Positions 1 through 4,743 of a DNA stretch of 20,918 bases are shown in pieces. Each line of letters begins with the position of its first letter. The stretch's first letter is position 1. Under the pieces are notes generated by a model. That model did no database searches. It had not been told where the DNA came from and saw only the letters and a program-made list of their open reading frames with translations. This stretch comes from a virus, in IMG/VR virus record IMGVR_UViG_3300021964_005956, positions 1 through 20,918 of that record; one strand, given 5' to 3'. The position numbers and the translations under genes are program-made.

Positions 1-638
1 TCTGCATATCCCATTAGGCTGACTGTTCCTGTTGCATAACCCACGTTACCATCATTGTCGTAACCAAGTGCTACACCCCACGGCTGTTCTCTGTTCAGTC
101 TGTATGAATCAAAATCAAATTCGTTATCATACTCCCAGCCACCAAATGTTAATACAGTTTTTTCTCTGTGATCGATTCTGTAGTTTGTTTCCGTAAAGAT
201 AAGTGGTGCACTAATCTTAGGAGTCTTTGCAAATCCCATTCTCTGTGCATCTGTTTCACCAATGTAAAGTCTTGCTGAGTCATTACCAAAACCCAATTGC
301 TTCTCTACCATTTTATCGTTCAGGGTAGTATCAAGTGCGTAGTGTGAGTCATATTTAAATGATCCACCTGCCCAATTAATGTTCAAACCGTTATCAGGTA
401 ATTCTGTTTCTAATCCCAGTTGCACTTCACCACGTGAGTCCCAACCTGAGTCATAAGTCTTGTCATCATAGAAACCTTCAATATTTCCGTTAATAAAAAA
501 TCCCTCTGGGATATTTGGCATATTGTTTTCCAAAGCCTCTACTCTGCTTTCAAGAGTCTTGTTTTGATCTGTTCCGTCTGCTAATACCATGCTAGATAAT
601 AAGCCAAACAGAATAGTCAATATTGCTATTTGTTTCAT
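1..638 (-). CDS. Porin-like outer-membrane protein, N-terminal part (runs off the left edge)
   Basis: The open frame starts at ATG 636-638 and runs without a stop off the left edge, giving about 212 residues of the N-terminal part. An AAGGAA ribosome site lies just upstream. The first 20 residues form a clear Sec signal peptide: MKQIAIL, a hydrophobic core, then VLA before the predicted cut. A short heptad-like segment (TLESRVEALENN) follows. After it come alternating hydrophobic and polar stretches rich in Gly, Asp, Tyr and Trp, ending in aromatic residues, as expected for strands of an outer-membrane beta-barrel. The coiled-coil start plus barrel resembles trimeric porins and carbohydrate-selective porins, but I cannot name the family. 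It would act in the host outer membrane. Its neighbour is katG, separated by a terminator and inverted repeats. A porin-like gene is unusual phage cargo. The alternative is that the window is a phage-like island in a bacterial chromosome. Confidence 0.7.
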   Translation of the reverse strand, partial: MKQIAILTILFGLLSSMVLADGTDQNKTLESRVEALENNMPNIPEGFFINGNIEGFYDDKTYDSGWDSRGEVQLGLETELPDNGLNINWAGGSFKYDSHYALDTTLNDKMVEKQLGFGNDSARLYIGETDAQRMGFAKTPKISAPLIFTETNYRIDHREKTVLTFGGWEYDNEFDFDSYRLNREQPWGVALGYDNDGNVGYATGTVSLMGYA

Positions 639-787: not shown

Positions 788-2983
<2,196 letters not shown>

Positions 2984-3009: not shown

Positions 3010-3032
3010 GAAAAGTGCAACTTTTCTGTTGC
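3010..3032 (-). terminator. Hairpin after the tmRNA coding piece
   Basis: On the minus strand GCAAC-AGAAAA-GTTGC forms a 5-bp hairpin followed by ACTTTTC. It probably ends the tmRNA transcript before the katG promoter. The U-run is short and interrupted, so it may also be a processing stem. Confidence 0.5.
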
Positions 3033-3177
3033 CAGGTAAGTTGCCAACCCCGTCACCTAGTTAACTAGGCAGCAAGAGCAAAGTTTTCGTTTGCGTCTAT
3101 AGTTTTGCTGATTTACGGTCTCGCCTACCGGTAATCTCTTTCATCCTTAACAAGCCAGTCGATCCTATTTCGCCCCC
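3033..3177 (-). ncRNA. ssrA: Two-piece tmRNA: coding (tag) piece
   Basis: This is the mRNA-like half of a permuted tmRNA, which rescues stalled ribosomes and tags their products for proteolysis. Its 5' end GGGGGCG (3171-3177) pairs over 7 bp with CGCCTCC of the acceptor piece, including a G3-U70 wobble, the main alanine-charging signal. The D-like segment GGATCGACTGG matches the tmRNA consensus. CTTGT near 3151-3155 can pair with ACAAG of the acceptor piece as helix P2. A PK1-like stem lies around 3113-3139. ATAGAC precedes the resume codon GCA (3092-3094). The tag frame reads ANENFALAA and stops at TAG (3065-3067), inside the palindrome CCTAGTTAACTAGG. The 3' end is uncertain; I placed it before the hairpin at 3017-3032. 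Confidence 0.92.
3065..3094 (-). other. tmRNA proteolysis-tag reading frame (ANENFALAA)
   Basis: The codons GCA AAC GAA AAC TTT GCT CTT GCT GCC TAG encode ANENFALAA and a stop. Together with the alanine carried by the tmRNA, the added tag would be AANENFALAA. The ALAA end is the classical ClpXP/ClpAP degron, and the start resembles the E. coli tag ANDENYALAA with one residue missing and Tyr changed to Phe. Confidence 0.92.
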
Positions 3178-3178
3178 A

Positions 3179-3367
3179 TCATAAAGACACTGAACCTACG
3201 GGTTTACAGATATATTCAACTGTATCCCAAGATCCATCTGCTGGCACTTCTAAGTATTCTACAAGCATAGTTTCACACTTTGCTTTAGTTTCAAACCATT
3301 GCACATCTTGTTCTAAGCAGGTCGAGCCCGAACAAACTGTTAATAGTATATGCCAAATAACTTCCAT
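3179..3367 (-). CDS. 62-aa Cys-containing protein inside the tmRNA intervening segment
   Basis: This ORF lies wholly inside the segment (3178-3382) that must be cut out of the permuted pre-tmRNA. It starts 15 bases after the acceptor CCA end and its stop falls one base before the first G of the coding piece. An AAGGA site ten bases before the ATG supports translation. The product has a hydrophobic start (MEVIWHILLTVCSG), which could be a short signal or membrane segment. It has five cysteines and a body of the type CxxxVQWFETKAKCETM...DTVEYICKP, resembling small secreted or periplasmic proteins. I do not recognise the family. Translation would compete with, or follow, excision of the spacer. 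It could instead be a chance frame, but the ribosome site and the near-exact fit to the spacer argue against that. Confidence 0.7.
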   Translation of the reverse strand: MEVIWHILLTVCSGSTCLEQDVQWFETKAKCETMLVEYLEVPADGSWDTVEYICKPVGSVSL

Positions 3368-3382
3368 TCTTCAGTGTCCTTA

Positions 3383-3449
3383 TGGTGGAGGCGCCGGGTA
3401 TCGCACCCGGGTCCTGTTCTTGTGACATACGATGCTGTCAACAATTACA
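3383..3449 (-). ncRNA. ssrA: Two-piece tmRNA: acceptor piece
   Basis: This is the tRNA-like 3' half of the tmRNA, encoded upstream of the coding half as in circularly permuted genes. It carries a T-arm CCGGG-TGCGATA-CCCGG, the 3' acceptor strand CGCCTCC, discriminator A, and an encoded CCA (3383-3385). The acceptor strand pairs with the coding piece 200 bases downstream. ACAAG and CATC can pair with CTTGT and GATG of the coding piece as P2. A TGACA/TGTCA hairpin is an alternative fold near the 5' end. The 5' end is placed from the expected start site of the promoter at 3456-3484 and is approximate. Confidence 0.88.
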
Positions 3450-3453
3450 CTTA

Positions 3454-3484
3454 TATTTATAGCACCTTTTATAGATGCTGTCAA
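3454..3484 (-). promoter_or_regulatory. tmRNA promoter (sigma70 with embedded T4-type late box)
   Basis: TTGACA (3479-3484), 17 bases, then TATAAA (3456-3461) form a strong host-type promoter. The same -10 region reads TATAAATA (3454-3461), a perfect T4-type late promoter, so the tmRNA could be made both early and late. A second copy of GTTGACAGCATC (3431-3442) lies 43 bases downstream, inside the acceptor piece. Confidence 0.75.
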
Positions 3485-3492
3485 CCATAAAA

Positions 3493-3583
3493 TGGTAGCA
3501 GGACCGGGATTCGAACCCGGATCAGCCAATTATCTGTTGCTACGGAGTATAAACCCGCTGGTTTACCATTAACCTACCCTGCT
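3493..3583 (-). tRNA. tRNA with long variable arm, predicted anticodon UAU (AUA)
   Basis: The acceptor strands AGCAGGG and TCCTGCT pair over 7 bp with discriminator A and an encoded CCA. The D-arm is GGTT-AATGGTA-AACC. The anticodon arm is GCGGG-TTTATAC-TCCGT, giving anticodon UAU at 3549-3551, with two G-U pairs in the stem. The T-arm CCGGG-TTCGAAT-CCCGG is perfect. The variable region is about 21 bases and can form an AGCAA/TTGGCT stem, a class II feature normally limited to Leu, Ser and Tyr tRNAs. The anticodon would read isoleucine AUA, but the charged amino acid cannot be settled from the body. Confidence 0.8.
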
Positions 3584-3586
3584 ATT

Positions 3587-3661
3587 TGGTGCGCCCGGAG
3601 AGATTCGAACTCCCGACTAGACCGTTATGAGCGGCCGGTTCTACCACTGAACTACAAGCGC
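3587..3661 (-). tRNA. tRNA with CAU anticodon (Met, or Ile2 if lysidine-modified)
   Basis: All arms fold: acceptor GCGCTTG/CGGGCGC with two T-G pairs, D-arm GTTC/GAAC, anticodon stem GGCCG/CGGTC with loop CTCATAA, and T-arm GGGAG-TTCGAAT-CTCTC. CCA is encoded. The anticodon CAU lies at 3627-3629. Only three bases separate it from the tRNA at 3493. Elongator Met and AUA-reading Ile2 share the loop CTCATAA, so the isotype is open; the lack of a C1-A72 mismatch argues against initiator Met. Confidence 0.92.
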
Positions 3662-3670
3662 ATTATTAAA

Positions 3671-3746
3671 TGGTGGGCCCACTAGGATTTGAACCTAGGA
3701 CCAATGGATTATGAGTCCACTGCTCTTACCACTGAGCTATAGGCCC
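3671..3746 (-). tRNA. tRNA with CAU anticodon (second; Met or Ile2)
   Basis: The acceptor GGGCCTA/TGGGCCC, D-arm GCTC/GAGC, anticodon stem GTGGA/TCCAT with loop CTCATAA, and T-arm CTAGG-TTCAAAT-CCTAG all fold, with encoded CCA. The anticodon CAU lies at 3711-3713. The GGGCC acceptor start resembles bacterial Ile2 genes, so this one may be the AUA reader and its neighbour the Met tRNA. That is a guess. Confidence 0.92.
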
Positions 3747-4183: not shown

Positions 4184-4387
4184 CTATTGAGGTTGTATGT
4201 TTGATGCCTGTAAGCCTTTTGGTCCTTCTTCAACTTCATAACTTACGGACTGATTCTCTTTTAAAGATTTGAATCCACTGTTTTGAATTTGCGAATAGTG
4301 AGCAAATACGTCTTTACTGCCATCGTCAGGAGTAATAAAACCAAAACCTTTGGTGTCATTAAACCATTTTACTTTTCCTGTTGTCAT
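4184..4387 (-). CDS. Cold-shock protein (CspA family)
   Basis: This 67-aa single cold-shock domain matches E. coli CspA in length and pattern. [18 protein letters not shown] carries the RNP1 motif KGFGFI, and DVFAHY is RNP2. [10 protein letters not shown] is close to the E. coli text. Such proteins bind single-stranded RNA and DNA, melt mRNA structure and can antagonise termination. AAGGAAAC eight bases before the ATG is a good ribosome site. In a phage it could help translation of structured messages or alter termination for phage transcription; that role is inferred. Confidence 0.95.
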
Positions 4388-4431
4388 TATGTTTCCTTGT
4401 TATTTTATTCTTTTCTGTGTGTGTGAGAATT

Positions 4432-4743
4432 CTATGCTGCCACGTCTATTTCCTGTGGCTTAGTTTCCTTTGATTTCATCTTTTCCGCATCAGGGCGCAG
4501 TGGTTCCAGCCATGAGTCAGCAATGTATGCTTTCTCCGTGTCGCCGAACATGTTACTCAATCCCTGTCCACTGATCCACCAATAGTGATCGGTAACTGGA
4601 CACATACAAGCAACACCACGAAATTCAAATCGTTCGCCCTGTTTGTATTTGCCTATATATTTTTCGACCAAGACGATCTTGCCGATGTTCTCCTGTCTAA
4701 CGGAAAATATAATCTTTGCTAAATCGCCTTGTTCGCACTTCAT
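4432..4743 (-). CDS. 103-aa hypothetical protein
   Basis: The product begins MKCEQGDLAKIIFSVRQENIGKIV, followed by beta-rich segments, a CMCPVTDHYWWISGQG stretch with two close cysteines, and a charged tail (PDAEKMKSKETKPQEID). The GDLAKI...NIGKIVLVEKY pattern suggests a small SH3-like barrel as in KOW-type or hypervirulence-associated domains, but this is only a resemblance. It starts one base after the stop of the DUF454 gene and lacks an obvious ribosome site, which implies coupled translation with that gene. Confidence 0.8.
   Translation of the reverse strand: MKCEQGDLAKIIFSVRQENIGKIVLVEKYIGKYKQGERFEFRGVACMCPVTDHYWWISGQGLSNMFGDTEKAYIADSWLEPLRPDAEKMKSKETKPQEIDVAA

Follow-up and report, generated by a model that had tools for sequence, protein, structure and literature searches.

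The spacer between the two halves of a permuted tmRNA is normally discarded. At the locus described here that spacer is 205 nt long and almost all of it is an open reading frame, which raises the question of what a protein gene is doing inside a tmRNA gene. The locus lies on a virus contig record of 20,918 bases, analyzed over its whole length and referred to as the window. A sequence-only reading of this DNA had proposed a phage-borne, permuted two-piece tmRNA with the tag ANENFALAA and had treated the spacer as inert. The tmRNA was borne out by cmscan, by ARAGORN, and by the virus-record source. The spacer, however, is a 62-codon protein gene, here called F1. The features of the locus are listed below in the direction of transcription.

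3493-3746, minus strand: three tRNA genes just upstream, Ile-tat (3493-3583), Met (3587-3661), and Met (3671-3746), from Rfam and ARAGORN.
3454-3484, minus strand: promoter-like TTGACA-N17-TATAAATA, combining a -35 box of sigma-70 type and a -10 box of T4-late type, immediately before piece 1, from the sequence pattern.
3383-3448, minus strand: tmRNA piece 1, with the acceptor 3' strand, the T-arm, and an encoded CCA ending at 3383, from the RF04321 and RF01849 alignments and ARAGORN.
3178-3382, minus strand: intervening segment (IVS, the spacer), 205 nt, with removal expected at maturation, from the CCA-to-G1 distance.
3371-3382, minus strand: 5' arm of the IVS terminal stem, UAAGGACACUGA, holding the Shine-Dalgarno (SD) sequence AAGGA (3381-3377), from pairing, pairing probabilities, and covariation.
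3179-3367, minus strand: nested protein gene F1, 62 codons plus TGA (MEVIWHILLTVCSGSTCLEQ...GSVSL), from the ORF, viral relatives, and dN/dS.
3182-3193, minus strand: 3' arm of the IVS stem, UCAGUGUCUUUA, which is also the last four codons, S-V-S-L, from pairing, pairing probabilities, and covariation.
3178-3181, minus strand: processing loop UGAU opposite ACCA, its UGA being the F1 stop, from the junction tally.
3014-3177, minus strand: tmRNA piece 2, with the acceptor 5' strand (3177-3171), the D-like GGATCGAC, the tag reading frame, and the downstream region, from the RF01849 match to 3014.
3065-3094, minus strand: tag reading frame, ANENFALAA plus TAG, with resume codon GCA at 3094-3092, from ARAGORN and the sequence.

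The tmRNA was called by two routes. In cmscan the permuted two-piece tmRNA spans 3014-3488 on the minus strand, with an alpha_tmRNA (RF01849) match at 3488-3014 (114.7 bits, E 4.9e-31) and a tmRNA_permuted (RF04321) match at 3448-3065 (113.9 bits). The Rfam gathering scores are 50 and 47, and the locus lies far above both; a covariance-model search was the check that the sequence-only reading had named, and both models match above their cut-offs. ARAGORN independently called a permuted tmRNA with the tag ANENFALAA, together with the three adjoining tRNAs. The acceptor helix joins GGGGGCG (3177-3171) to CGCCTCC (3393-3387) in 7 of 7 pairs, including G3-U70. A discriminator A precedes the encoded CCA (ending at 3383), and the T-arm, GGATCGAC, and the GCA resume codon are all present as predicted. 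In the modeled window precursor, every acceptor and spacer-stem pair has a probability of 0.86-1.0.

A phage-borne permuted tmRNA is in itself already known. A two-piece tmRNA has been published for Melnitz, which infects OM43 bacteria, and the same study counted 53 two-piece phage tmRNAs, 50 of them in marine or aquatic phages (PMC9004378). One exact 24-base tmRNA string is shared by 87 viral contigs. Phage tmRNAs had been described in the earlier reading as known but rare; with 53 published and 87 contigs carrying the string, known is correct and the rarity is weaker than stated. The suggestion that the virus runs its own ribosome rescue is partly upheld. A look through 12 related phage records, possibly fragments, turned up no SmpB, so host SmpB would be needed. 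With the permuted tmRNAs of alphaproteobacteria and phages (RF01849/RF04321) the window tmRNA shares the gene order, acceptor helix, G3-U70, T-arm, resume codon, and ALAA tag end. In alphaproteobacteria most spacers are short (the ordinary ones read measure 2-56 nt), whereas the window spacer is 205 nt.

The class I ribonucleotide reductase small subunit of the window is closest to those of T4-like phages of Synechococcus, Pelagibacter, and Prochlorococcus (63-65% identity), and nrdA, nrdB, PAAR, and cold-shock neighbors recur in related contigs. The tRNA called Ile(tat), at 3493-3583 on the minus strand, has a long variable arm, with some 18 nt more than expected, which is unusual in a tRNA-Ile. 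Near the F1 copy of another locus (L104) there is an Ile(tat) call as well, of 94 nt. After the tmRNA come a full-length katG for a catalase-peroxidase (Pfam peroxidase; 788-2914, minus strand) and a porin-like ORF (3-638, minus strand). A near-perfect sigma-70 promoter (TTGACA-N17-TATACT, 2982-2954) serves as a separate one for katG, which is absent from all tmRNA-sister loci compared. Its relatives occur in at least 144 IMG/VR contigs, the closest among the matches listed being at 72% (L210).

F1 fills nearly the whole spacer. Its ATG stands 15 nt after the CCA, and the 189-nt gene ends in UGA, one U ahead of the mature G1. A family search found 134 viral loci encoding F1 relatives. The nested form accounts for 41 locus entries, or 35 distinct viral contigs once double fetches are removed, with 25 distinct coding sequences; contigs of one virus population are not independent. 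These sequences are 60-100% identical and always 189 nt long, and their geometry is fixed: CCA, 12-15 nt starting TAAGGA, ATG, 189 nt, TGA, one T, G1. Median dN/dS over the 25 is 0.18-0.20. Around the nested gene the acceptor helix keeps 7 of 7 pairs plus G3-U70 in all 41 entries, in six types (GGGGGCG/CGCCTCC, GGGGTCG/CGACTCC, GGGCCTG/CAGGTCC, GGGGCTG/CAGCTCC, GGGGATG/CATCTCC, and GGGGCCG/CGGCTCC). Because pairs and G3-U70 are kept through six helix types, the flanks still look like working tmRNA, and 10 of 10 nested-spacer sister loci rescanned with Rfam scored above both tmRNA cut-offs. On these comparisons the gene-within-gene arrangement is well supported: both genes show the marks of selection, and the RNA pieces keep their pairing, with compensatory changes, around the ORF.

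The ends of the spacer also pair with each other. In the window UAAGGACACUGA, directly after the CCA, pairs 12 of 12 with UCAGUGUCUUUA, followed by UGAU and G1. Of 83 distinct junctions tallied, 71 have TGAT directly before G1, whether the spacer holds an ORF or not. Across 67 distinct phage composites a mean of 10.5 of 12 stem positions pair, versus 7.9 with shuffled partners (maximum 8.4 in 500). Covariation was scored in 33 sequences hand-picked for diversity, with which the full 67 agree on pairing: 96% of cells are paired, both sides change in 12 of 12 pairs, and the score is 0.50 versus 0.14 for shuffles, none of which reaches any measure. When the register is slid by one to three columns, pairing falls to 45-60%. 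The covarying spacer stem extends the acceptor helix. The stem and UGAU loop also occur in short (20-60-nt) spacers without an ORF, so their first role was probably RNA maturation. A stem common to bacteria was considered and rejected, most alphaproteobacterial spacers read being too short or unpaired, with one exception (L296).

Nested F1 genes are fitted to this stem, with the SD in the 5' arm, the S-[VM]-S-L codons as the 3' arm, and the UGA in the loop. Every nested F1 protein has SVSL or SMSL at its end, which nearly all non-nested F1 proteins lack. Accessibility was calculated with a nearest-neighbor model (RNAfold) that ignores pseudoknots, proteins, and kinetics. In this model the mean probability that the SD is unpaired is 0.0008 across 26 nested genes, 0.65 with the last 40 nt missing (that is, before the 3' arm exists), and 0.45 in 22 non-nested homologs. 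The SD is never free in the modeled window precursor, and the stem holds in the excised spacer too. A known phage gene, the I-TevI ORF in the T4 td intron (PMC2988022), is likewise nested in a processed RNA, and on the longer transcript a stem sequesters its ribosome-binding site. I-TevI is freed by its own late promoter inside the intron, whereas the window locus has neither intron nor nuclease; no intron family, group I included, is among the window Rfam matches. The 5' arm is present on every transcript with the F1 SD, so that only timing could free the SD.

We therefore favor, with moderate confidence, a gene within a tmRNA gene that is translated on the nascent transcript before the RNA folds and is processed to tmRNA; of this, it is the switch that we infer. 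RNA polymerase would start at the TTGACA/TATAAATA promoter (step 1). The SD would stay open until the 3' arm is made, and ribosomes would translate F1 on the nascent transcript (step 2). A ribosome at the stop would hold the 3' arm unfolded (step 3). Its departure would let the stem and acceptor helix close, shutting off new initiation (step 4). RNase P, cutting before G1, and 3' processing after the CCA would free the two tmRNA pieces (step 5), which would work with host SmpB (step 6). A single RNA would in this way serve a few rounds as messenger and then as tmRNA. The promoter pattern recurs: of 25 distinct regions upstream of a nested ATG, 19 contain [TG]ATAAATA at a distance of 82-94 nt, and TTGACA usually stands about 17 nt farther upstream. 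With a -35 box of the sigma-70 kind and a -10 box of the T4 late kind combined, early and late expression would both be possible; for the Melnitz tmRNA, early expression has been postulated (PMC9004378).

Other genes use the same place. In other marine phages the tmRNA spacer is taken up by roughly a dozen further families of small ORFs, as found with census patterns built around an alpha-type acceptor.

38-49-aa membrane-type protein: 10 coding sequences, dN/dS 0.17.
64-68 aa: 12 coding sequences including shorter calls, dN/dS 0.40.
26-29-aa basic peptide: 6 coding sequences, dN/dS 0.14.
82-aa and 120-aa families, plus several singletons.
70-73-aa and 43-aa families, from a further pattern scan.

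Among loci drawn solely by the 24-base string (L002-L088, with both pieces in 83 of 87), the spacer exceeds 100 nt in 28 of 48 distinct loci, and a good number of these long spacers hold ORFs other than F1. Three loci (L005, L022, and L038) have a 499-nt spacer with a 120-aa ORF, without the UGAU loop or terminal stem that almost every other spacer shows. Melnitz (L089) has, at about 4279-4463, a 142-nt tmRNA spacer with an unannotated SD-led ORF (MFKWLSKTRLVVITRDYF...) that extends into the tag piece by 42 nt. For the tmRNAs of L148 and L156 the tag predicted by ARAGORN has 29 residues (ANDNASNVFSFVDFSNARKYVNEDFALAA), roughly three times as many as usual. No cultured phage with the 40-aa or 67-aa spacer family was found. 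Among about 150 RF04321 matches listed from a draw of 190 alphaproteobacterial genomes, three spacers exceed 300 nt, and a pattern search found 190-220-nt spacers in six genome contigs. Among the long bacterial spacers read, none contains an ORF like those of the phages, save for one long, chance-looking frame in a MAG (L190).

The SD-in-stem arrangement is limited to the F1 family and a few others. In the 40-aa family the start lies about 50 nt into the spacer behind its own SD, so the switch is not general. As a tentative generalization, to which we lend somewhat less than even weight, the spacer in marine T4-like phages may be a standard accessory-gene slot with a dual-role stem, for maturation and for coding and SD, and the pre-tmRNA a switch that turns messenger into rescue RNA in one direction only.

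The alternative that survives best accepts F1 as a real gene and places it in the spacer merely through tight genome packing, the stem serving maturation alone and the burial of the SD being a by-product. The ORF-less spacers that keep stem and loop fit this account, as does the use of the slot by different ORF families, and the non-nested copies of F1 bear on it directly. The first of these was Melnitz gp85, an F1 relative 3 nt upstream of the annotated tmRNA, which first showed the spacer ORF to be a gene. F1 thus lies outside the Melnitz ssrA (PMC9004378), whereas in the window it lies inside the spacer. A tblastn search for F1 in 50,697 phage records matched only four Melnitz genomes. Non-nested F1 often sits beside stable RNAs, directly upstream of the tmRNA or between tRNA-Thr and tRNA-Leu (the latter in L161, L163, L166, L168, and L170, and also in L104 and L142), as mobile cargo might. 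A tree built from 56 distinct F1 coding sequences does not unite the nested copies in one clade, and a single origin of the nested state is rejected (AU p 0.00036). At least 7 changes between nested and non-nested states are counted, 2 of them forced by well-supported branches, a count that 177 columns and recombination make rough. In one locus (L133) an F1 ending in SVSL lies directly 5' of the tmRNA, whose 28-nt spacer TAAGGACATTAATTCATGTCTTTTTGAT keeps F1-type arms, as if F1 had moved out of the spacer. F1 has thus probably entered or left the spacer on repeated occasions, in many cases settling against an RNase P site. Tight packing does not account so readily for the SD being buried in 26 of 26 nested F1 genes tested when non-nested copies are mostly open, or for a start immediately beyond the stem in every nested F1. 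We regard packing alone as a genuine possibility, though on balance an unlikely one.

A second alternative invokes feedback through non-stop messages. Here the RNase P cut would leave a spacer message nearly without a stop, and the phage's own tmRNA, when plentiful, would rescue the ribosomes on it, tagging the small protein for removal. Many spacer ORFs do stop exactly 1 nt before G1, in F1 and several other families. In others the frame continues past G1 and is closed by the TAG within GGGGGCGAAATAG, a conserved sequence of the mature tmRNA (stop end at +13), so that maturation by RNase P would sever it a few codons short of that stop. This cut, about 4 codons short, applies to 12 of 15 loci of the 64-68-aa family and to two singletons; loci with this ending include L171, L174, L178, L189, L172, and L062. 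In five contigs with tRNA-flanked homologs the G of the F1 TAG stop is the first base of tRNA-Leu, and RNase P would cut inside the stop codon. The stop position is, however, explained by the conserved UGAU loop, which is present without ORFs too, and little initiation is expected on an excised spacer that, as modeled, keeps its SD buried. We consider such feedback improbable.

A third account makes F1 part of a selfish insertion element that spreads into tmRNA spacers, like 23S rRNA IVSs or intron-borne homing genes. The 23S rRNA IVS of Coxiella with its S23p ORF (PMC4990558) likewise interrupts a stable RNA, has complementary ends, contains an ORF, and is removed, and the patchy distribution of F1 would suit an element of this kind. 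The Coxiella IVS is cut by RNase III and holds one protein family, its ORF decaying and apparently not expressed. tmRNA spacers, unlike it, hold many families under purifying selection and have RNase P and CCA ends. The window ORF is not an S23p-like protein in an rRNA spacer, having no Pfam family and a tmRNA as its host RNA. No nuclease or group I intron was recognized, the arms are part of the tmRNA gene and occur in ORF-less spacers too, and unrelated ORFs use such arms. We give the selfish element very little credence. Weakest of all, and hardly credible, is a plain phage permuted tmRNA with an accidental open frame: the tmRNA is certain, and a random IVS is open in the F1 frame in 0.8% of trials, but a dN/dS of about 0.2 over 25 distinct coding sequences indicates purifying selection and contradicts an accident, as do the exact length kept down to 60% identity and the 134 relatives, non-nested ones in other contexts included.

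The protein itself has four invariant cysteines (positions 12, 17, 31, and 54) and a predicted beta-beta-alpha-beta fold (AlphaFold2, pLDDT 86). It has no Pfam match, and its PHROGs matches are at chance level alone. A fold match to PDB 8g9s chain A (E 0.38, TM 0.63) was not significant and was set aside, as were viral fold matches to uncharacterized proteins (E of at least 0.027). From its type, our guess is a small host-takeover protein.

Spacers with other contents have been described. In the part of the tmRNA database account consulted (PMC11915505), one spacer holds a tRNA-Ala gene and one a repeat element, so other sequence is found there likewise, and that part mentions no protein gene. 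In the open-access papers searched we found no mention of a protein gene in a permuted-tmRNA spacer, and older papers on permuted tmRNAs may remark on it. The nested, structure-fitted protein gene is what is new here.

To our knowledge, annotation handles tmRNA genes as non-coding RNA genes, and no one searches them for proteins in the process. The spacer genes described here point to a whole class of conserved small phage proteins hidden inside tmRNA genes. A loop that doubles as a stop codon, and an arm that is both helix and four codons, make an unusual case of overlaid codes with clear covariation, in which the conflict between translating and folding one RNA becomes directly testable. If the generalization to marine T4-like phages is true, circular permutation of tmRNA would be useful to phages as a removable slot for a second gene; the arrangement suggests a selective use for an otherwise puzzling permutation.
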